Source: Bdellovibrionota bacterium
GTDB lineage: Bacteria; Bdellovibrionota; Bdellovibrionia; Bdellovibrionales; JAEYZS01
Assembly (NCBI GenBank): GCA_040386775.1
Contig: JAZKEU010000021.1
Coordinates: forward strand, 1-44,775
Direction: 5' to 3'
DNA: 44,775 nt
The position numbers were made by a program, and so were the translations under genes. The notes beneath the pieces are model-generated. The model was not told the origin of the DNA. It saw only the letters and a list, made by a program, of their open reading frames with translations, and ran no database searches. Below, piece by piece: positions 34,369 to 44,561 of the stretch (positions are counted from its first letter, which is position 1; every line of letters begins with the position of its first letter).

Positions 34369-36270
34369 CTAACTATTCTTTTGATAGATTTCTATAGCAC
34401 GAGTCAAATAACCTTTTAAAGATTTGATTTCCTCTTTAAACCTCTTGTCATTAGCAATTGGCCCTACAATTTCTTCCGGAGCAAAGCCCAATGTCTCAAA
34501 ATATTTTAAACTCTGTCTAAATTTATCATCTAAAACTCTCAAAACACTTGGGGGCAATTTTTCAATCAATTGGTCAATTTGATGTGTATCTTGATCCATC
34601 GTCATTTCACTGAGCAGGAAGTCCACCAAGTTCACCACGGATACGCCCGCTTCTCTGAATTTTTTATCGCTCTGAAGTTTTGAGACTCCATTCATACGCT
34701 TGCTCATTTCTTGAACAAGCACAATTCTTTTCTCACCAACTCTAATCTCTTTGATATAAAGCCCCATCAAAGCTAACGCCGTAAGTACAGTGACTATCAT
34801 CCAAATTTTATTCCACATTTCTTGTGTCATTGTGAATGAAGATTCTTTGTAAACCAAATTTGGCAAAGTGATTTTTACTTTTTCTTGAGACTGAGTCATG
34901 AATCCCTGATCACCACCCGATGGCAGTTGATTTTTACCCGCCACAACTTTGAGTGGAATTGGCTGAGTCGTTCTCTTTTCAAATTGACGAGTGTTAGGAT
35001 TAAAAAAACTCACGCTCAGACCCGGAATAGTAAGTTCCCCGGTTTTTCTTGGAATCAACAGAATTTCAAATTCTTTAAAACTTGATCCATCAGTTGAAAA
35101 TTTTGAATCACTCTTTGTATCATATTGCTCAAATCCTTCAGGCAAATTTAAAGCTGGAATCTCAATTTGCTTGGCGTTTCCTTTGCCTTCAAATCTCACT
35201 TTGAAGGTGAAAGGTTCATTTGCTGCCACAGTTGTTTTGTCTACAGAACCCTTGATATCAAATGTTCCAACTGCACCAGAATAATCCGTAGGCTGACCTT
35301 GAGATGGCACCGGCAACACTTCAATTTTTACTGGAGGATTTACTTTGGTGAAAGTATAGGGCTTTCCAAATACACCAAAAGCACTCGACATGATTGCTGT
35401 TGCCCTTAATTTGTAAGAATCAATTGTTGCAGTTCCTGGCTTAATTGGAAAGAGAGCGTAGGAAACGAGCAATGCTTTTTTATATGGCAAACCATTGATC
35501 ACTACGTTTGTAAAATTCAATCTCGTAGCAATCTCGATATCTTCTTTCCAAAAGCTTTTTAGATCTGGATATTTCATCGGTTCAAAGTTTGTTAAATTGT
35601 TTTGCGTATAGAGATACCAGGTCGCTGTGATTTGCTCTCCGGCGTAAACTTTTTGCTTATCCACTTCTACACGAATAAAAAATGCTTCATCAGGATTGAT
35701 ATTCGATGGAGCTTGCTGAGCTTTAGGAATTGTCCTTTGCAACAACTGACTGAAGATCGCATCGGCTTCGTCCATGGCGTCTTGCGCATCATCTTCTCCG
35801 TAGTTTGGCTGAGGCGCCTGCGGTTGTGATGGCCTTACGTTACCAGCACTCTTCATTACTTTTAGATTTATAGAATTACTTCTTAAGGTATTTTGACCCA
35901 CAACCACTTCCGCCGGCGTGATGGTGAACTCTCCAGGAGCTTGCGGCACCAGTCGATAATTAAAAATCTGACGTCTAACAAAACTGAACTTTCCATTTAC
36001 GAATTCACTACGCGATTCCACCTGAGACCCACGATCAACGAGATTAAATCCACTGATATCCGGTAGCCTTGGCTCACCCACTCCACCACTTTCAGAGCTA
36101 GATACAATAATGGAATAGAGAAACGATTGCCCCATCACGATTTGGACTTCGCCATTCGCCTGGCCGTTGATTGTGGCAATCACTTCGTCTTTGGCTTCTA
36201 CTTTAAGGCCTGTGAAAAGAGAAAATAATAATATTAAAGTACTTAAAGCTCCACTACCAATCTTTACCAT
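34369..36270 (-). CDS. batD: BatD-like membrane protein
   Basis: BatD is the last gene of the Bat operon, described for 'Bacteroides aerotolerance', with extracytoplasmic beta domains. Starting at 36270 (AAGGAG seven bases upstream) the protein has 633 residues, with a signal peptide ending LKVEA, several immunoglobulin-like strand-rich blocks (VIATINGQANGEVQIVMGQS, VDKQKVYAGEQITATWYLY, VDKTTVAANEPFTFKVRF), a single membrane helix near the end (IWMIVTVLTALALMGLYI) and a helical cytoplasmic tail. The 36297 ATG would lie inside the batC reading frame and has no such site. It overlaps batC by 17 bases in another frame. It may help the VWA proteins fold or signal; the exact function is unknown in the family. 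Confidence 0.88.
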   Translation of the reverse strand: MVKIGSGALSTLILLFSLFTGLKVEAKDEVIATINGQANGEVQIVMGQSFLYSIIVSSSESGGVGEPRLPDISGFNLVDRGSQVESRSEFVNGKFSFVRRQIFNYRLVPQAPGEFTITPAEVVVGQNTLRSNSINLKVMKSAGNVRPSQPQAPQPNYGEDDAQDAMDEADAIFSQLLQRTIPKAQQAPSNINPDEAFFIRVEVDKQKVYAGEQITATWYLYTQNNLTNFEPMKYPDLKSFWKEDIEIATRLNFTNVVINGLPYKKALLVSYALFPIKPGTATIDSYKLRATAIMSSAFGVFGKPYTFTKVNPPVKIEVLPVPSQGQPTDYSGAVGTFDIKGSVDKTTVAANEPFTFKVRFEGKGNAKQIEIPALNLPEGFEQYDTKSDSKFSTDGSSFKEFEILLIPRKTGELTIPGLSVSFFNPNTRQFEKRTTQPIPLKVVAGKNQLPSGGDQGFMTQSQEKVKITLPNLVYKESSFTMTQEMWNKIWMIVTVLTALALMGLYIKEIRVGEKRIVLVQEMSKRMNGVSKLQSDKKFREAGVSVVNLVDFLLSEMTMDQDTHQIDQLIEKLPPSVLRVLDDKFRQSLKYFETLGFAPEEIVGPIANDKRFKEEIKSLKGYLTRAIEIYQKNS

Positions 36271-36931
36271 TTGGAGTCTCCTTGCTTTTTTTATCATTCA
36301 TTTTGGCGCGAATTTGTTCTTCTTGCCTTTTTAATTCATCTAAAATTCTTCTGACATCTTGCTCACTCAAATCCTGACTTTTGAAAGGCTTTGGAGCTTT
36401 TTTCTTGTTTTGGTCCTGCTTTTGTTGATCAGGTTCTTTTGGTTGCTGCTGCTGCTTTTGATCTTGCTTGTTCTGTTCATCTGATTTTTGCTCCTTATCA
36501 GAATCATTTCCCCCGCCACCATTGCCCTGGAACAATAATTCAATATTGTTTTTTACTTCTTCTGATTCGGGGCGAATATCCAAAGCCGCCTGATAATATT
36601 TTAAGGCACTTGGAATATTCTTTTGCTCTCCATAAACTCTTGCGGCGTTAAATAAGGATTGAAATTTCAAATTTTGATCTTCAGTAGAATTAGCTGTTGA
36701 TAAATATTCTTTGATCGCTTTTTCTGGTTCCTTGGAATTCTCATGAACAACGCCCAAGTTATAATGAAGAGCTCCAGCCTTTGGATAATTCACCACTTCT
36801 TTTTCAAGCTGGATTTTACTATCTATAAGTTTCTCATCTGCAAACATCCCCACAGCCTTGTTATTCTTGTAAACCAACGAAGGATTTTCCGCAAAAGCAC
36901 CACTCAAGAGTAACAGTAATGAAATTATCAT
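36254..36931 (-). CDS. batC: BatC-like TPR protein
   Basis: The 225-residue product has a short signal peptide (MIISLLLLLSGAFA), two to three TPR units (AGALHYNLGVVHENSKEPEKA; SLFNAARVYGEQKNIPSALKY), then a Gln/Lys/Asp-rich disordered tract (about 135-180) and a helical C-terminus (LSEQDVRRILDELKRQEEQI). This layout, TPR plus charged low-complexity tail, is typical of BatC. The ATG overlaps the batB stop (ATGA), and its 3' end overlaps batD by 17 bases, so all three are coupled. Confidence 0.85.
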   Translation of the reverse strand: MIISLLLLLSGAFAENPSLVYKNNKAVGMFADEKLIDSKIQLEKEVVNYPKAGALHYNLGVVHENSKEPEKAIKEYLSTANSTEDQNLKFQSLFNAARVYGEQKNIPSALKYYQAALDIRPESEEVKNNIELLFQGNGGGGNDSDKEQKSDEQNKQDQKQQQQPKEPDQQKQDQNKKKAPKPFKSQDLSEQDVRRILDELKRQEEQIRAKMNDKKSKETPNGKDW

Positions 36932-37971
36932 TTTGGTTTCCTCTCCGTGATATTTTTACGTTCCGTCATCAACATCTCGATCATCAAAAGAATAAAAGCA
37001 ATAAACAATGGAATTTGAAATCTCTCGTCATACTTTTTCATAAAGTCGCTTTCAAATTCCGATTTTTCTAATTTCCCAAGATCTGCTTCCAATTGCCTTA
37101 CTTCATCACCAGTAAACGAAGCATGATAATAGGCACCCTTGCCCTCTGAAGCCAATTGTCTCAAGAAATCAGTGTTGACCTTAGACATAACAATTTGACC
37201 TTCAGAATTTTTTTTGTAGCCCTTCAATTGACCAAAATCATCTCTTGCTGGAATGGGCGCGCCTTGCGCCGTTCCCGCACCAATCGTGAAGATACGCACA
37301 CCTTTACTTACAAGGTCTTTGGCTTGTTTCAAAGTGTCATCGTCATGGTCTTCACCATCGGAAATAAATACTATCACTTTTGTAACTTTAGTGAGCTCGT
37401 CTTCTTCAATTCCACCGCGCTTGAAAGAATCCAGGGCTGCTTTAATCACGGACCCAAAATTTGTTCCTTGATTACTGATGGAGTTCGGGTTGATCGTTTC
37501 TAAAAACATCTTCAACGCTGAATAATCAGTGGTCAGTGGGGACATGAGTGCGGCACTTCCCGCAAAACCAATCAATCCCACTTTATATCCATTCACGCGA
37601 TCCAAAAGCTTGGTAATAATGTTCTTTGAAACTTCTAGACGGTTCGGCTTTAAATCTTCAGCCATCATGGAGTTAGAAATATCGAGTGCAAAAATAATCT
37701 CAATCCCTTCCATTTTAACTTGTTCCGTTGACTCTCCTAATTGCGGACGGGCAAGAGAAATCACAATGAATACGACCGCGAGAATTTCAAGAATAAATTT
37801 TATATTGCGCTTTCTTTTAGAAAGAAAGCCAGTCAAAGAATCATAAATCTCTGCCTTGAATAGTTTTTTAATTTTATCCGAGCGAATTTTGAAAGCCAAG
37901 AAGGCCAAAACAATCAGCACCGGTATTGCTGCCAAATAGTATAAATAAATCATATCTTGAAAACGGAACAT
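36928..37971 (-). CDS. batB: BatB-like VWA-domain membrane protein
   Basis: The 347 residues have two N-terminal membrane helices (about 8-27 and 59-73), a von Willebrand factor A domain, and a C-terminal helix (IPLFIAFILLMIEMLM). The MIDAS motif DxSxS is intact in DISNS (D97, S99, S101), with the threonine loop near MSPLTTD and the acidic residue in SDGEDHDD. A VWA domain with a complete MIDAS suggests metal-dependent protein binding in the periplasm. Start ATG abuts the batA stop (TAG-ATG), after a GGGG tract. The close BatA paralogue precedes it, so the pair arose by duplication. Confidence 0.9.
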   Translation of the reverse strand: MFRFQDMIYLYYLAAIPVLIVLAFLAFKIRSDKIKKLFKAEIYDSLTGFLSKRKRNIKFILEILAVVFIVISLARPQLGESTEQVKMEGIEIIFALDISNSMMAEDLKPNRLEVSKNIITKLLDRVNGYKVGLIGFAGSAALMSPLTTDYSALKMFLETINPNSISNQGTNFGSVIKAALDSFKRGGIEEDELTKVTKVIVFISDGEDHDDDTLKQAKDLVSKGVRIFTIGAGTAQGAPIPARDDFGQLKGYKKNSEGQIVMSKVNTDFLRQLASEGKGAYYHASFTGDEVRQLEADLGKLEKSEFESDFMKKYDERFQIPLFIAFILLMIEMLMTERKNITERKPK

Positions 37972-38976
37972 CTACGGCCCCCTTCTCAAAAGTGTAAGCC
38001 TTAAGAAAAGACTTGCCACCAATAGATAAAAGGCCCACTTCAAATAAGTTTGGTAGAGCTCTGTATATCTTGTGAATTTATTCACTTCAATTTTTGTTTT
38101 TTCTAAACGGTCAATGTCTTGGAAAACTTTTTGCAAAGCCCCTGTGCTACCTGCGCGGTAGTATTTTCCACCCGTTTCACTCGCCAATCTCCCTAAAAGA
38201 TCGTCATTTACTTTCGAGTGGATCGGCTGGTATGTTTTTATAGTTCTACCAAATGGATCGGTCATCGTCACCGGAAGCTGGGCTTCTCCATCTACGCCGG
38301 CACCAATAGAATAAATTTTAATTCCGTAGCCTTTGGCAATGTCTAGAGATGTTTCTGGATCAATGGTTCCAGAGTTATTTTCGCCGTCCGTTAAAAGAAT
38401 AATTACCCGACTCTTCGCCGTAGAATCTTTTAATCTTGCAACAGCATTGGCCAGCGCCACACCAATCGCGGTTCCCATCTTGATGGATCTGGTGGGCTCA
38501 ACTTTTCTTAAGCTTTCTAATAGAATAGGATAATCAAGGGTCAGCGGCACTCTGGTGTAGGATTCACCAGAAAAAACCACTAGGCCAATACGGTCAGAAA
38601 CTCTTTTCTTAATGAAATCTTCAATTGTTTTTTTAGAAGATTCCATACGGTTCACCGGCTGCATGTCTTCAATCAACATACTGTCCGAGATATCTAAGGT
38701 CATCATGATGTCAATACCTTCAACATTTCTTTTTACTTTTGTATCAGAAACTTGAGGTCTCGCCAATGCAAACACCAAACAGATCAATGCTAAAATTTTT
38801 AATAATAATGGCAAACCAGAAAGGTAAGATCTTATCCCTCGAGGAAGCCTTGCAATCTGTCCAAGGCTTGAAAATTTTAACGTCGGTTTTTTCTTGGCTA
38901 AGTATAAAACGTAATAACCAATATAGAGCAAAATCAAAATCAGTAATGAAAAAGCCCAAGGATTATGCCAGGTCAT
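37972..38976 (-). CDS. batA: BatA-like VWA-domain membrane protein
   Basis: This 334-residue paralogue of batB has helices at about 6-26 and 54-72, a VWA domain with intact MIDAS (DISDS at D95, S97, S99; TLDY and LLTDGENNSG as the later metal-site loops), and a C-terminal membrane helix (TYLKWAFYLLVASLFLRLTLL). The ATG overlaps the preceding stop by four bases (ATGA) and lies in a GAGAGGGC context. In other species Bat proteins are needed for resistance to envelope or oxidative stress, but mechanism is not settled. Confidence 0.9.
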   Translation of the reverse strand: MTWHNPWAFSLLILILLYIGYYVLYLAKKKPTLKFSSLGQIARLPRGIRSYLSGLPLLLKILALICLVFALARPQVSDTKVKRNVEGIDIMMTLDISDSMLIEDMQPVNRMESSKKTIEDFIKKRVSDRIGLVVFSGESYTRVPLTLDYPILLESLRKVEPTRSIKMGTAIGVALANAVARLKDSTAKSRVIILLTDGENNSGTIDPETSLDIAKGYGIKIYSIGAGVDGEAQLPVTMTDPFGRTIKTYQPIHSKVNDDLLGRLASETGGKYYRAGSTGALQKVFQDIDRLEKTKIEVNKFTRYTELYQTYLKWAFYLLVASLFLRLTLLRRGP

Positions 38977-39830
38977 GCACGCCCTCTCTTTTTCTGAGAA
39001 AGGGCTTCATCGATAATCTCGGTTAACTTTTGCGCGCGATCCATCAAATACAATCCATCAGATTTTTTGATGTCACTTTTTGTTTTAGCAAATTCAGAAA
39101 AATATTTTTTTATATCGTCGCCATGATCACGATAAATTTTTGGATATTTTTTTTTGATTTCGCCTAAGATCTGACGAATTCCCCAGATGTGCGCAGGGAT
39201 ATGCAAGCTTCGACTTAAAAATATTTTTAAATCTTTATCAATTTGATCCGCAAATCCCCTAGGAGAAATGTGCTCCACTTCCAACGCTTTTTCCATTCTG
39301 CGGACGGACTTAAAAAAACTATCTAAAGGACTCAAGGCCGCTTCTAAGTTTTTTAGATCATCAAAAGCTTTTTTGCGGTTCTTAATTTTCTTAAACTGCA
39401 AGTATGGAAGTGCAATTGTATTTACGATCACTGCCACCAGCAAAATCCAAAACCATATTGGATAAGAAAGTTCCCACATAGGAAAAGAGCCCACCGGCTG
39501 CGGAGGATTTGTTGGGTCCTGCTTCAAAACACTTTTCAAGGACCAATCAAATCCCGTGAGCGTCACTTTATTTTTTCCATCGTACATGACCACTTGATCT
39601 GATTTATGATCTCCAGTTCTATAACTAGTTACTATAAATTCAGATTTGTCTGGCATATAAGTTTGAACTTGCAACAACGTGAGCGAAGGAATTTCGTCCG
39701 TGAGCTGAGGATCTTTAATCTGTAAAGAATCTTGCGCAATTCCCTCTGTTGCCCCTTCACAAGATAGAGCGAGCTTCTCGCCCACCGTAATCTCAGCATT
39801 TTTCGAAAGCTTACAATTCCACTGGCTCAT
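38973..39830 (-). CDS. DUF4381-like Bat-operon membrane protein
   Basis: Members of this group sit between the DUF58 and VWA genes. The 285-residue product has one membrane helix (about 121-142, PIWFWILLVAVIVNTIALPYL) flanked by a strand-rich N-terminal region of about 115 residues with two cysteines (6 and 24) and a helical, lysine-rich C-terminal region of about 140 residues. There is no cleavable signal peptide. The positive residues after the helix predict the N-terminus outside and C-terminus in the cytoplasm. Both of its ends overlap neighbouring genes by four bases. The assignment rests on position and general layout; identity in the first half is not clear. Confidence 0.7.
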   Translation of the reverse strand: MSQWNCKLSKNAEITVGEKLALSCEGATEGIAQDSLQIKDPQLTDEIPSLTLLQVQTYMPDKSEFIVTSYRTGDHKSDQVVMYDGKNKVTLTGFDWSLKSVLKQDPTNPPQPVGSFPMWELSYPIWFWILLVAVIVNTIALPYLQFKKIKNRKKAFDDLKNLEAALSPLDSFFKSVRRMEKALEVEHISPRGFADQIDKDLKIFLSRSLHIPAHIWGIRQILGEIKKKYPKIYRDHGDDIKKYFSEFAKTKSDIKKSDGLYLMDRAQKLTEIIDEALSQKKRGRA

Positions 39831-40702
39831 TTGCGAGACCTCATTTTGAAATAGGAAATGAGCGGATCTACAAAATCATTATTGGTTTGAACAACAATTT
39901 TTCCAACACCAGATTTTCTCAGCTCTTGGTCTCTGAGTTTTTTACTTTCGATACTTTTCTCTTTGTAATGTTTTTTAAATAGCGGACTAGATGTATCTAC
40001 CGCGATGATTTGATCTGTTTCAGAATCTTGCATTTCTACTAAACCCATTGAAGGCAATTCATTTTCAAATTGATCTTCAACAACGACCGCAACCGTATCG
40101 TGCTTCTTACCCAAAAACCTCAGTGAACGTTCGTAGTTCGTGTCGATAAAGTCTGAGAATATAAATATATTTGTTTTTTTATTCAGCACTGCTCGCAGAT
40201 GTTCCATCGCTTCTGAAATTTTTGTTTTCTTACTGCGAGGTTCAAAGAATAAAATATCTCTGAGGATTCTGTGCACATGACCACGGCCTTTCTTAGGAGG
40301 AACGTAATGCTCGACTGTATCCGAGAAAAGCAAGAGACCAATTCTATCGTTATTCTTCACCGCACTAAAACTCAAGAGCGCAGCCAATTGAGCAATTACA
40401 TCTTTTTTTAAGTAATACTTAGAACCAAACTCTCCGGATCCACTCACATCCACAGCAATCATCAACGTGAGTTCGCGCTCTTCATCATATTTTTTTATGT
40501 ATGGCTTATCGGCTCGTGCCGTGAGAGTCCAAGAGATGTGTCGCACATCATCGCCCGGAACATACTCTCTGAAATCAGAAAAAGTCATACCCTGGCCTTT
40601 AAAAGCAGAATGGTACTCTCCTGCAAAAAGAGAGTTCACTAGCTTTCTTGTTTGAATTTCAAGAAGCTTAACTTTTTTTAAAAGCTCAGGACTGAGTTCC
40701 AT
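39827..40702 (-). CDS. DUF58 domain protein (VWA-like)
   Basis: The 291-residue protein has the DUF58 hallmark GDDVRHISWTLTARADKPYIKKY (50-72) and an adjoining VWA-like half with a DVSGS metal site (D85, S87, S89). No membrane helix is present, so it is cytoplasmic or peripheral. DUF58 proteins are typical MoxR partners; the AAA ATPase is thought to act on them. The gene lies three bases after moxR, and its stop overlaps the next gene's start. Confidence 0.92.
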   Translation of the reverse strand: MELSPELLKKVKLLEIQTRKLVNSLFAGEYHSAFKGQGMTFSDFREYVPGDDVRHISWTLTARADKPYIKKYDEERELTLMIAVDVSGSGEFGSKYYLKKDVIAQLAALLSFSAVKNNDRIGLLLFSDTVEHYVPPKKGRGHVHRILRDILFFEPRSKKTKISEAMEHLRAVLNKKTNIFIFSDFIDTNYERSLRFLGKKHDTVAVVVEDQFENELPSMGLVEMQDSETDQIIAVDTSSPLFKKHYKEKSIESKKLRDQELRKSGVGKIVVQTNNDFVDPLISYFKMRSRK

Positions 40703-40705
40703 GAA

Positions 40706-41689
40706 TTATGGCACCTCAATGTGATTTAAAACCTCATTGATAACTTGATCTGTTGATACTTCTTCGGCCTCGGCTTCATAAGTTAAAATGATTCTATGTC
40801 GAAGAACCAAGTAAGCAATGGCTTTCACGTCATCCGCCGTCACGTAACCCCGACCCTTTAGGAAAGCATGAGCTCTCGATGCTTTTGCAAGAGAGATTGT
40901 TGCTCTAGGAGAACCACCCACTTGCACTAAACTTTCAAGCCTCCTCAACCCCATGGCGCTCGGCTGCCTAGTCGCAAAAATAATTTCAACAATGTAGTTT
41001 TTAATTTTTGCATCAATGTAAATTTCATTGATTAATTTTCTCACTCTTAAAATATCATCTTTGCCCATCATCGCATTCACTTTGGGAATTGCATCAGTTG
41101 AAAGATTTTCTAAAATCGTAAGTTCTTCTTGGCGATTCGGATACTTCACCACCGTCTTGAACATAAATCTATCCATCTGCGCTTCTGGAAGTGGATATGT
41201 GCCTTCTTGTTCAATCGGGTTCTGAGTTGCCAAAACCAAAAATGGCATTTCGAGAGGATAGGTAGTATCCCCAATAGTCACTTGCTTTTCCGCCATCGCT
41301 TCAAGCAAAGCACTTTGAACTTTTGCAGGAGCACGGTTGATCTCATCGGCCAAAACTATATTTGTAAAAATCGGACCTTTTTTTGAAGTGAACTCATTTG
41401 TCTTTTGATTATAAATCATCGTCCCCACAAGATCTGAAGGGAGCAGATCGGGAGTGAACTGAATTCTTTGGAATCCCAGCGAAGTGGCCTTGGCAAAAGT
41501 TGAGATCGCCAAAGTTTTTGCCAATCCCGGAAGGCCTTCCAGCAAGACGTGTCCACCGGTGAGTAGGCCCATCATAATACTTTCAGCCATTTCTTTTTGT
41601 CCGATAACAACTTTAGAAACTTCTTGAAGCACGGATTTTATGTATGGATTTTCTTTTTCAATATCACGATTCAATTGTTCGATTTGCAT
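40706..41689 (-). CDS. moxR: MoxR-family AAA+ ATPase
   Basis: MoxR ATPases act as chaperones for VWA proteins. The 327 residues include Walker A GLPGLAKT (52-59), Walker B VLADE (112-116) in the MoxR-specific context DEINRAPAKVQSALLEAM, sensor 1 ATQNPIEQEGTYPLPEAQMDRF, and the C-terminal lid with RHRIILTYEAEAE. It heads the seven-gene moxR-DUF58-DUF4381-batABCD operon, which is read as one transcript from the spacer at 41.7 kb. A clear assignment to the family; substrate inferred from context. Confidence 0.95.
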   Translation of the reverse strand: MQIEQLNRDIEKENPYIKSVLQEVSKVVIGQKEMAESIMMGLLTGGHVLLEGLPGLAKTLAISTFAKATSLGFQRIQFTPDLLPSDLVGTMIYNQKTNEFTSKKGPIFTNIVLADEINRAPAKVQSALLEAMAEKQVTIGDTTYPLEMPFLVLATQNPIEQEGTYPLPEAQMDRFMFKTVVKYPNRQEELTILENLSTDAIPKVNAMMGKDDILRVRKLINEIYIDAKIKNYIVEIIFATRQPSAMGLRRLESLVQVGGSPRATISLAKASRAHAFLKGRGYVTADDVKAIAYLVLRHRIILTYEAEAEEVSTDQVINEVLNHIEVP

Positions 41690-41750: not shown

Positions 41751-41819
41751 CAAAAATGTGATGCATTACGAGTACTTTACGCAATTGGTCAGAGATGCTG
41801 CGTTCACAGCTAGATGCAA

Positions 41820-41975
41820 TGGTTAGTAATGCTTTAAGTTAACAGGCGACTACAAGGCCGATACAAATGTGTTTTTTAAAAAGACTTGTATCGGCCGCGT
41901 AAGTTATAAGAATATAAAGTAAGTTTTGAGGAATTTAAATTCATTTCGCCTGTTAACTTAAAGCATTATTAACCA
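41820..41975. repeat. Long nested inverted repeat in a divergent spacer
   Basis: The 30-base arms at 41820-41849 and 41946-41975 are reverse complements with one mismatch (a G-U pair in plus-strand RNA). Inside is a second 11-bp stem, GGCCGATACAA (41856-41866) with TTGTATCGGCC (41886-41896), with a 19-base loop. It ends about five bases before the ribosome site of the next gene. Because the neighbours are divergent, it cannot be the terminator of either. It might be a structured leader of the 41989 mRNA, an operator or a mobile repeat; no target duplication is seen. About half of the 299-base spacer is explained by it. Confidence 0.85.
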
Positions 41976-41988
41976 CTGAAGGAGTCGA

Positions 41989-42819
41989 ATGTTTATACAT
42001 CATCGGGGATGGATCTTCTTAGGAATAGTTTCTTTTCTATTTCTAATTGCTGGGCAAGCTTTATTCGGAAGACAAGGCCTTCTTATGGGCTTTCTTGCTG
42101 CCAGTGCTCTTAACTTTTATATTTATTTTGTATCTGAAAAAATGATCTTTAATTTTTTCAAGGCAGAGGCCCTGACAGGACAAGACTCTTGGGGCGTGAC
42201 CTCTTCTCTAGTCAAGGCAGCAGAGAATTTTCATAGCTTTCCCCCGCAAGTTTACATCACAAAAATTGATTCTCCTCTAATTTTTTGCACATCGCGTGGA
42301 TGGGGAAAATCAAAAATCATTCTTTCCGAAGCTCTTCTCAACAAGCTCACTAAAGAAGAAATCCAAGATTTATTAATGATTCACATGCTATACCTTTTAT
42401 CTTTAAGCGCTTTCTTTATTGGATTTAGAGCTCAATTTGCCGAGATCATCTATGTGATTACAAAATTTCTAGATTTAATTCTGTCACTTCCATACATTGT
42501 TAGCGGCCAAGACAAAAAAATCGTATTCTTTCAAAAAATTCTTCTGCCATTCGGAACAATATTTGCTGAGACTCACAAGAAAACCCTTCTTCATGTGGAC
42601 GAACAAGCTGCAAAACTCATTGGCTCAAAAGAAAGATACGCAAAGCTCATCTGGAAACTTCAAGGCCTTCTCCAAACAAAACCTTTCCCCGCTCCACCAT
42701 CTCCTGTGATTTTGTTTATGATCAATCCCTTGACAACTAATGGTTTAGACAAATATTTCCAAAAGCATTTCGGACTCGACGTGAGAATCAAAAATCTCGT
42801 CGGCCACTACCCTATGTAA
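41989..42819 (+). CDS. HtpX-like membrane protein lacking the zinc-protease site
   Basis: HtpX is a membrane M48 metalloprotease that degrades damaged membrane proteins. This 276-residue product keeps its overall plan: an N-terminal helix pair, the G-R-Q-G-L-L stretch at 27-32, a helix with NFYIYFVSEKMIFNFFKAE, the strand PPQVYITKIDSPLIFCTSRG, and SEALLNKLTKEEIQDLLMIH. The catalytic HExxH is replaced by HMLYL (H132 kept; Glu and second His lost), and the third ligand in the ExxxD element is Leu200, though D204 remains. Hence it is probably an inactive relative. ATG 41989 has AGGAG four bases upstream. It leads a three-gene group with DUF1844 and the Do protease. Confidence 0.75.
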   Translation: MFIHHRGWIFLGIVSFLFLIAGQALFGRQGLLMGFLAASALNFYIYFVSEKMIFNFFKAEALTGQDSWGVTSSLVKAAENFHSFPPQVYITKIDSPLIFCTSRGWGKSKIILSEALLNKLTKEEIQDLLMIHMLYLLSLSAFFIGFRAQFAEIIYVITKFLDLILSLPYIVSGQDKKIVFFQKILLPFGTIFAETHKKTLLHVDEQAAKLIGSKERYAKLIWKLQGLLQTKPFPAPPSPVILFMINPLTTNGLDKYFQKHFGLDVRIKNLVGHYPM

Positions 42820-42830
42820 AAGAGGATACC

Positions 42831-43088
42831 ATGACAGACCAACAAAAGATCGAAGCAAATATTTCCACTTTAGCCCTTTCATTAGGATCATCCGCTGCGA
42901 TGGCGATGGGGCTGGCCCCAAATCCAATGAATGGTAAAATCGAAAAAAATATCGAAGTTGCTAAATTCAATATCGACATGCTGATGGTTTTAAAAGATAA
43001 AACCAAAGCCAATCTCACAAAAGAAGAGGAAAATCTTCTCCACAGAATGATTGTCGATCTTCAAACTAAATTCGTACAGGTTAAATAA
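42831..43088 (+). CDS. DUF1844 family protein
   Basis: The 85-residue product has the family pattern: a small helical N-terminus, LALSLGSSAAMAMGLAPNP, a short turn (MNGKIEKNIEVAK), then NIDMLMVLKDKTKANLTKEEENLLHRMIVDLQTKFV. The function of DUF1844 is unknown; no membrane helix or catalytic residues are visible. ATG with GAGGA upstream, 11 bases after the HtpX-like gene and 27 before the Do protease gene. Confidence 0.85.
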   Translation: MTDQQKIEANISTLALSLGSSAAMAMGLAPNPMNGKIEKNIEVAKFNIDMLMVLKDKTKANLTKEEENLLHRMIVDLQTKFVQVK

Positions 43089-43115
43089 GACAAATAAAAA
43101 ACATAAGGAGTGAAT

Positions 43116-44561
43116 ATGAGCAAACTACTCGCTTTAATTCTCACGCTAGGTTTTATTTCTTCATCCCATACGCAAGCACAAGAAGCCGCGTATACGATGA
43201 AGCTAAGCGCCCCCCTACCGGCAAATATTTTTAGCGAACTCGCTAAGAAAATCAGCCCTGCCGTCGTCAGCATTTCTGTCAGCATCAACTACAAAAATAG
43301 ACTTCCCCCTGGTGCTTATCAAGATCCATTCTGGCAATTCTTCGAGCAGTACGGCCAACCCGGAGGCTCCGGAGGCATGCCTCAACCAACCCCGGGAGAT
43401 CTTAAAAATTTTCAACCCGTAGGCACAGGATTCATCATTGAGTCTGATGGATTGATTCTTACAAACTTTCACGTGATCGAAAATGCGGATAGTATTTATG
43501 TTCACGTTGCAAACAACGAAGAAAAATCCTTTGAAGCCAAACTCATCGGTGGGGATAAGAGAACTGACGTCGCCATTCTTAAAATCAACGCGGGAAAAAA
43601 ACTCCCCGTCGCAGATTTAGGTTCTAGCGATAAAGTGGAAGTTGGAGAATGGGTTTCGGCCTTCGGAAATCCTTATGGCCATGAGTTCAGCATGACCAAG
43701 GGAATTATTTCGGCAAAAGGTCGTAAAATCAGAGATCTTAACGCGGTTCCATTCTTACAAACCGATGCTGCGATTCATCCTGGAAATTCTGGCGGGCCAC
43801 TTGTCAATATCAAGGGCGAAGTGATCGGCGTAAACACGGCCGTTGATGCAAGAGCCGTTGGCAGCATTGGTTTTGCTATTCCTATTGATCACATTAAATC
43901 TATTCTTCCGGCTCTTAAAAAAGACGGAAGAGTTGTGAGAGGATTTATTGGGGTACAGATTGATAATATTTCTCCTAGAGCTCAAGCTATCCTTCAAATT
44001 CCCACAGCACAAGGGGCACTCATCATGGGTGTGATGGAACAAGGACCTGCGGATAAAGCAGGAATTAAAGCTTATGATGTCATCACTAAATTTGAAAATG
44101 GCAACATTTCATCTGCAGAAGAATTCAGCGATGCTATCAAAGACTTTCCAATTGGGAAAACCGCAAAAGTAGAACTCTTAAGACAAGGTAAAAAACAAAA
44201 TGTAACTCTTATGATTGCAAATCCACCGGATGAACCTAGAGCCTTAAGAGTCCAAAAGCCTTTGAACCGTAAGGGCGATCAAGCTCCTTTCAGCGTTGGA
44301 TTCAAAGTTGTGGATTTCTCGGAGACTATTGCACAAGAATTGGGAATCGCTCCAAGAGTTCCAAGAGGCCCGATTGTAGTAGAAGTTCAAGCGGGATCAC
44401 CGGCAGCACAAAATGGATTGAAAGTTGGCGATGTGATCTTAGATGTAAATAAGCGTCCCGTGAAGAGCGCAAAAGAAGTGATTTCGGCTCTTAAGAAAGG
44501 CAGCAATCATTTGAGAGTTCAAAAGAAAGCGGAAGTCTCATTTATCTTCTTAGATATATAG
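43116..44561 (+). CDS. degP: Do/HtrA-type periplasmic serine protease
   Basis: Do proteases degrade or refold misfolded periplasmic proteins. The ATG at 43116 follows AAGGAG by five bases; the in-frame GTG at 43110 overlaps that site and is unlikely. The 481 residues have a signal peptide (MSKLLALILTLGFISSSHTQAQ), a trypsin-like domain with H119 (NFHVI), D151 (RTDVAIL) and S225 (GNSGGPL), and two PDZ domains (about 265-355 and 375-475, second with GSPAAQNGLKVGDVILDVN). The Gly/Pro-rich insert at 67-98 before the histidine corresponds to the LA loop. Full length; could equally be named degQ or mucD. Confidence 0.93.
   Translation: MSKLLALILTLGFISSSHTQAQEAAYTMKLSAPLPANIFSELAKKISPAVVSISVSINYKNRLPPGAYQDPFWQFFEQYGQPGGSGGMPQPTPGDLKNFQPVGTGFIIESDGLILTNFHVIENADSIYVHVANNEEKSFEAKLIGGDKRTDVAILKINAGKKLPVADLGSSDKVEVGEWVSAFGNPYGHEFSMTKGIISAKGRKIRDLNAVPFLQTDAAIHPGNSGGPLVNIKGEVIGVNTAVDARAVGSIGFAIPIDHIKSILPALKKDGRVVRGFIGVQIDNISPRAQAILQIPTAQGALIMGVMEQGPADKAGIKAYDVITKFENGNISSAEEFSDAIKDFPIGKTAKVELLRQGKKQNVTLMIANPPDEPRALRVQKPLNRKGDQAPFSVGFKVVDFSETIAQELGIAPRVPRGPIVVEVQAGSPAAQNGLKVGDVILDVNKRPVKSAKEVISALKKGSNHLRVQKKAEVSFIFLDI

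Follow-up and report, generated by a model that had tools for sequence, protein, structure and literature searches.

The product of the gene at positions 41989-42819 of the DNA stretch analysed here (the window, 44,775 nucleotides of contig JAZKEU010000021.1) is, judging from sequence descent and predicted fold, a derivative of the M48 protease HtpX which has lost its zinc site. Nearly all members of its order that could be aligned share this loss, the gene stands in a conserved operon and is under strong purifying selection in close relatives, and an active HtpX is present elsewhere in most of the genomes. The dead HtpX, which we call pHtpX, therefore seems to have taken up a new, non-cutting job in the order.

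41989..42819, plus strand: pHtpX, a zinc-less HtpX-derived membrane pseudoprotease of 276 amino acids (open reading frame, NCBIfam HtpX, AlphaFold2 and Foldseek)

The first-pass annotation of this DNA had proposed a probable inactive HtpX homologue at these coordinates, and both the open frame and the HtpX homology were confirmed. In a search against the NCBIfam profiles, residues 6-270 matched the HtpX models PRK03001 / NF002826 with E=4.9e-23, with a score of 81.7 bits that lies below the equivalog cut-off of 369 bits for NF002826 (PRK03001). The Pfam M48 model did not match pHtpX when the ORFs of the window were searched. A model calculated by AlphaFold2 from 41 aligned homologues reached a mean pLDDT of 91.8 and a pTM of 0.84. 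The annotation had suggested a structural comparison with M48 proteases and regarded a missing match as evidence against its proposal, but the leading PDB matches found by Foldseek were all M48 proteins (4il3, 3cqb and 4aw6), with an E value of 9e-4 for Ste24p (4il3) and a TM-score of 0.69 on the target for the HtpX domain in 3cqb. Thus, pHtpX agrees with M48/HtpX proteins in sequence similarity and fold, but lacks the HExxH motif and the Glu serving as third ligand. With its catalytic residues gone, its fold kept and selection acting on it across species, it has the properties of a pseudoprotease, and we infer from the lost ligands and catalytic Glu that it is devoid of zinc-dependent proteolysis.

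42379..42393, plus strand: degenerate HExxH motif, I131-H132-M133-L134-Y135 (profile-based alignment comprising 79 members of the order and 14 relatives with an intact site)
42586..42600, plus strand: degenerate ExxxD motif with L200 at the third zinc ligand and D204 kept (same profile alignment)

The annotation had correctly recognised the loss of HExxH and the replacement of the third ligand, the Glu of ExxxD, by Leu200, but its reading of the first motif as HMLYL was shifted by one residue. Because the gap-free alignment with the relatives gives I131-H132-M-L-Y135, the His of the window occupies the column of the catalytic Glu. The protein of the window has neither any of the three zinc ligands nor the catalytic Glu, and the Asp of ExxxD (D204) is retained. 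We counted the state of the site in the 79 order members that were alignable to the profile with a score of at least 60 bits. None of the four zinc and catalytic residues is kept in 37 of these proteins, one in 24 and two in 17, and all four are present in a single one (genome G006). At least two of the four residues are therefore missing from 78 of the 79 proteins, a shared loss which, as judged from the alignment, is far beyond chance. The annotation had considered that intact orthologues would point to a local sequencing error. The possibility that an active HtpX gene was misread or misassembled was rejected and has a practically negligible probability, since the loss recurs in three genera of the same family as well as in these 78 order members, and the frame is intact over 276 codons.

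The aligned order members mostly have Tyr, His, Leu or Phe at position 131 and Gln or Glu at position 132, and they show His, Lys, Ser, Gln or Arg at position 135. Of 75 proteins, 46 carry Tyr or Phe at the place of the third ligand (200), and D204 is present in all 75. The alignment thus suggests that the former zinc cavity was refilled by aromatic or aliphatic residues, often by aromatic ones. Some lineages might still retain a metal or a modified activity, as many members of family f8 read HQ[ILMV]CH and keep both His residues with a Glu-to-Gln exchange. However, the exchange removes the catalytic base, and the HQxCH forms have Phe or Tyr in place of the third ligand, as in the genus containing Bdellovibrio (with Bdellovibrio sp. 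UBA4095), which reads HQ[ILM]CH with Phe as third ligand. The family of the window is without these residues, reading I..H...Y, L..Q...Y or L..Q...H, and contains no conserved substitute ligand. We therefore regard retained metal or modified activity as improbable. A new metal site made up of H132, H202 and D204 was likewise rejected, as it is unconserved even within the family of the window.

The gene stands in an operon-like arrangement with the following neighbours.

40706..41689, minus strand: MoxR-type AAA ATPase, divergently transcribed, bordering the operon throughout the class (open reading frame, synteny)
42831..43088, plus strand: DUF1844 protein of 85 amino acids with no apparent signal peptide and a predicted three-helix fold (Pfam E=1.4e-25, AlphaFold2)
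43110..44561, plus strand: Do/HtrA-family serine protease with two PDZ domains and an intact triad (TIGR02037 E=2e-122)

The HtpX-like gene indeed heads a same-strand row with a DUF1844 gene and an intact Do gene, as the annotation had stated; the ATG at 43116 is a likelier start for Do than position 43110. The three-helix model of the DUF1844 protein gave no informative fold match in the PDB, and no relative in sequence was found there either. The layout with a divergent moxR gene followed by the genes for pHtpX, DUF1844 and Do proved near-constant in an initial set of 61 loci. The DUF1844 gene comes after that of pHtpX in the same orientation in 58/58 cases, with a gap within 300 bp in 57 of them. 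Do comes after DUF1844, again in the same orientation, in 57/57 cases, and all 59 loci with both genes have MoxR in divergent orientation. One genome (G012, locus L064) is the sole one with about 3 kb between the HtpX and DUF1844 genes. The triad of Do is conserved across 91 loci, with His and Asp in 91/91 and Ser in 90/91 (one gap), which indicates that decay is confined to the site in HtpX. The label "envelope-protease operon" given to the row by the annotation needs care because the known topology of HtpX places its protease domain and C-terminus on the cytosolic side, and Do is periplasmic.

Two further observations concern the surroundings of the gene. A MITE-like element at 41817-41978, between the MoxR and pHtpX genes, has 33-nt inverted arms that are 94% complementary, encloses an inner hairpin at 41851-41901 and ends about 10 bp upstream of the pHtpX start. 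It may affect the promoter of pHtpX. Two diverged copies are found in the genome (C8:54269-54394, 78%; C1:58248-58370, 74%). The minus-strand region 34369-41689 holds a MoxR/BatA-BatB-BatD-like gene row, recognised by eye from the translations, with genes for MoxR, a DUF58-like protein, two VWA-type proteins, a TPR-type protein and a large periplasmic protein.

A pHtpX homologue was detected in 81 of 99 relatives. An intact HtpX occupies this operon slot in two genomes of family f11, which belongs to the same class, and in 11 of 12 genomes from other classes of the phylum; in the twelfth, HExxH is intact and the third ligand is changed from Glu to Asp. At these 14 intact-type loci outside the order, DUF1844 is the next gene in all except G123, whose contig stops directly behind the HtpX gene. 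Do follows in all except two, which lie at contig ends. MoxR does not adjoin the operon outside the class. Because other classes have an intact HtpX at this location, the change from active protease to pseudoprotease happened in place, and the ancestor of pHtpX was, from these comparisons, most likely an active operonic HtpX. A horizontal or viral origin was rejected, as no relative was found in viral contigs.

The only intact HtpX found in the slot within the order is that of G006 (L036, 5891-6718), which already has the order-specific tail described below; it may serve as a natural experimental control. In a tree of the neighbouring Do and MoxR proteins, G006 falls inside the order together with the family of the window (99% SH-aLRT), and an AU test disfavours a single clade of degenerate forms (p=0.028). 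The HtpX tree calculated from all columns places G006 beside the intact outgroups with a support of 78, and masking the zinc-site columns gives p=0.50 for the same question. The tree of the neighbours thus favours several losses of the zinc site, and the HtpX tree does not discriminate between one loss and several.

Residues derived in this lineage were identified from the profile alignment.

42070..42072, plus strand: R28 in the GRxG loop joining hydrophobic segments 1 and 2, derived, 93% in the order
42472..42474, plus strand: D162, derived, seen in the order only, 82%
42652..42654, plus strand: W222, derived, common to sister family f11, 88% in the order
42802..42816, plus strand: C-terminal tail G272-H-Y-P-M276, an order-specific G-x-[YF]-P-[ILMV] motif at the exact C-terminus

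The G..P tail is present in 64 of 79 order members and in none of the 14 intact relatives outside the order; R266 is conserved in 100% and G272 in 96% of the aligned order members. R28, G64, D66 and W222 are common to the intact f11 proteins. D162 and the GxYP tail occur in the order only, including the intact protein of G006, and f11 is without both. Because the derived features are present in intact proteins of either f11 or G006, they predate the loss of the zinc site. The edge strand, the substrate-binding element of M48 proteases, is less conserved in pHtpX (N97 19%, A98 53%, F99 57%, G102 72%) than in active HtpX (95-100%). Therefore, pHtpX does not necessarily work through the old substrate groove, and these conservation values speak for new surfaces instead.

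The position of the tail at the exact C-terminus raises the question of whether this conserved, hydrophobic end (-YPI, -YPL or -YPM) could be a ligand for the PDZ domains of Do, which would make pHtpX an activating peptide or an anchor of the protease. The tail is order-specific, and Do has two PDZ domains and always adjoins. We nevertheless consider such a ligand very unlikely, because the C-terminus should be cytosolic by the known HtpX topology and Do is periplasmic. Moreover, residues 271-276 are predicted by AlphaFold2 to be ordered (pLDDT about 90), so that the tail more likely packs on pHtpX itself.

Selection on the gene was estimated in g15, the genus that contains Bdellovibrio (including UBA4095) and differs from the window's own genus. 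For pairs with estimable dS, dN/dS was 0.00-0.05 for pHtpX versus 0.015-0.08 for Do, and 0.11-0.21 for pHtpX in lineages outside g15, with all ratios being rough above a dS of about 1 due to saturation. As far as such ratios tell, pHtpX is under purifying selection, which is strong in g15, and the low values there indicate that it is functional in this genus. If pHtpX were a slowly decaying remnant, kept merely as the head of the operon, erosion would be expected, and it does occur: only similarity traces of HtpX are left in the slot of G005, G007, G023 and G035, and no recognisable HtpX-like gene is there in G014 and G040, with MoxR and DUF1844 present in all six. In addition, reduced genomes have long branches in the tree. 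Accordingly, the function of pHtpX does not extend to the whole order, and DUF1844 and Do can manage without it. Against a remnant stand the low dN/dS values in g15, the invariant D204 and R266 and nearly invariant G272, the gain of new conserved residues, and the open frame in about 80 genomes. Even two small genomes (1.2-1.3 Mb; G069 and G056, loci L088 and L093) have kept a copy that is separated from DUF1844: pHtpX still adjoins MoxR there, and DUF1844 lies on another contig. Hence, mere persistence of a remnant has little probability.

The annotation had recommended a look for an active HtpX elsewhere in the genome, and such a gene was found: the genome of the window codes for three further M48 proteins in which both HExxH and ExxxD are preserved, one of them a canonical HtpX. 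With this canonical HtpX as query, close matches (E<=1e-30), which we call dispersed HtpX, were obtained in 93 of 99 relatives, and both motifs were intact in 30 of 30 loci inspected. No match at this threshold was found in the other six relatives, including G041, which is 97% complete and has pHtpX. In the tree, the operonic proteins form a clade apart from the dispersed HtpX that these genomes encode. In several relatives (among them G030:C404, G035:C24, G019:C6 and G060:C6), proteins of ~630-690 aa with open frames match the C-terminal two thirds of the HtpX model and are possibly another M48 architecture common in the order.

The wide distribution of an intact dispersed HtpX would suit a decoy or regulatory subunit, with pHtpX sharing clients or forming mixed complexes with the active enzyme and thereby restraining or redirecting it. 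In 8 of 12 outgroup genomes with an operonic HtpX that were examined, there is a single HtpX-like match, indicating that the loss of catalysis accompanies a second HtpX copy. However, the presence of pHtpX in G041 does not fit this explanation, and the two proteins are distant from each other, belonging to separate clades with no known oligomer interface. We therefore rate the decoy as unlikely, albeit less so than the other alternatives.

We give an even chance to pHtpX being a non-proteolytic membrane adaptor or scaffold. According to this proposal, it would descend from the active HtpX that headed an ancestral HtpX-DUF1844-Do operon, having changed without leaving its slot, and would keep the four-segment membrane layout with a cytosolic soluble domain, a topology assumed from HtpX. 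Acting without cutting, it may bind membrane-protein clients or protein partners, with the lineage-fixed GRxG loop, the GxDPWG entry to the soluble domain, D162, W222 and the C-terminal GxYP[ILM] tail as candidate binding surfaces. The cytosolic DUF1844 protein would be its most plausible co-worker. pHtpX might then represent the inner-membrane half of a quality-control unit with Do as the periplasmic half, and cutting would have been handed over to the dispersed HtpX. An iRhom-like adaptor role, as the annotation had suggested, is compatible with the strong purifying selection, the active HtpX elsewhere and the new conserved residues seen in the sequences. A more far-reaching proposal, which we put forward tentatively and with more doubt than confidence, is a bacterial, order-wide counterpart of the iRhoms: the operonic HtpX would have gained an interaction surface and the C-terminal tail while active and later lost its zinc site, perhaps repeatedly and independently, and the Bdellovibrio lineage would thereby have obtained an adaptor that no longer cuts and is devoted to membrane-protein quality control.

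Pseudoproteases as a type of protein have been described before, and membrane-bound ones are best known from eukaryotes. In a limited literature search, no publication dealing with pseudoproteases of the HtpX type or with the HtpX of Bdellovibrio turned up, and DUF1844 was mentioned once in passing, so an order-wide, operon-fixed HtpX pseudoprotease appears undescribed. pHtpX is a membrane pseudoprotease in a fixed bacterial operon that also codes for an intact protease, and most genomes have an active paralogue at another place. The stages of the transition are visible in living relatives, from active (other classes) via active with the new tail (G006) and half-dead with HQxCH to fully dead (the window). 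The change from enzyme to non-enzyme is directly testable, and the lineage includes the cultivable predator Bdellovibrio.

Compared to known systems, pHtpX is closest to HtpX itself, the M48 inner-membrane zinc protease (PRK03001 subfamily), with which it shares its length, the hydrophobic segments, the M48 fold, the Asp of ExxxD, the Arg in the C-terminal helix and the place ahead of DUF1844 and Do in related classes; it differs in lacking the three zinc ligands and catalytic Glu and in having the new tail, D162 and W222. Ste24p/ZMPSTE24 (4il3, 4aw6) were among the top Foldseek matches, but these proteases, which have seven transmembrane helices, are active and larger and show only 14-16% identity to pHtpX. 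The iRhoms, pseudoproteases of the rhomboid family, are likewise polytopic, protease-descended, inactive and conserved (PMC3149277, PMC6451368), but they are eukaryotic and belong to another fold and protease class; pHtpX adds only a short tail and no regulatory domain. The plant FtsHi proteins, FtsH homologues without the zinc motif (PMC4070914), are zinc-less membrane metalloprotease homologues beside active paralogues, too. They belong to an AAA+ hexamer family with an ATPase domain, which pHtpX does not have. Finally, the M48 protease BepA has the same fold and exerts a chaperone-like function beside proteolysis via its edge strand, thus representing an M48 protein that acts on a client without degrading it, but it is periplasmic, has kept its zinc site and contains a TPR domain (PMC8423444).
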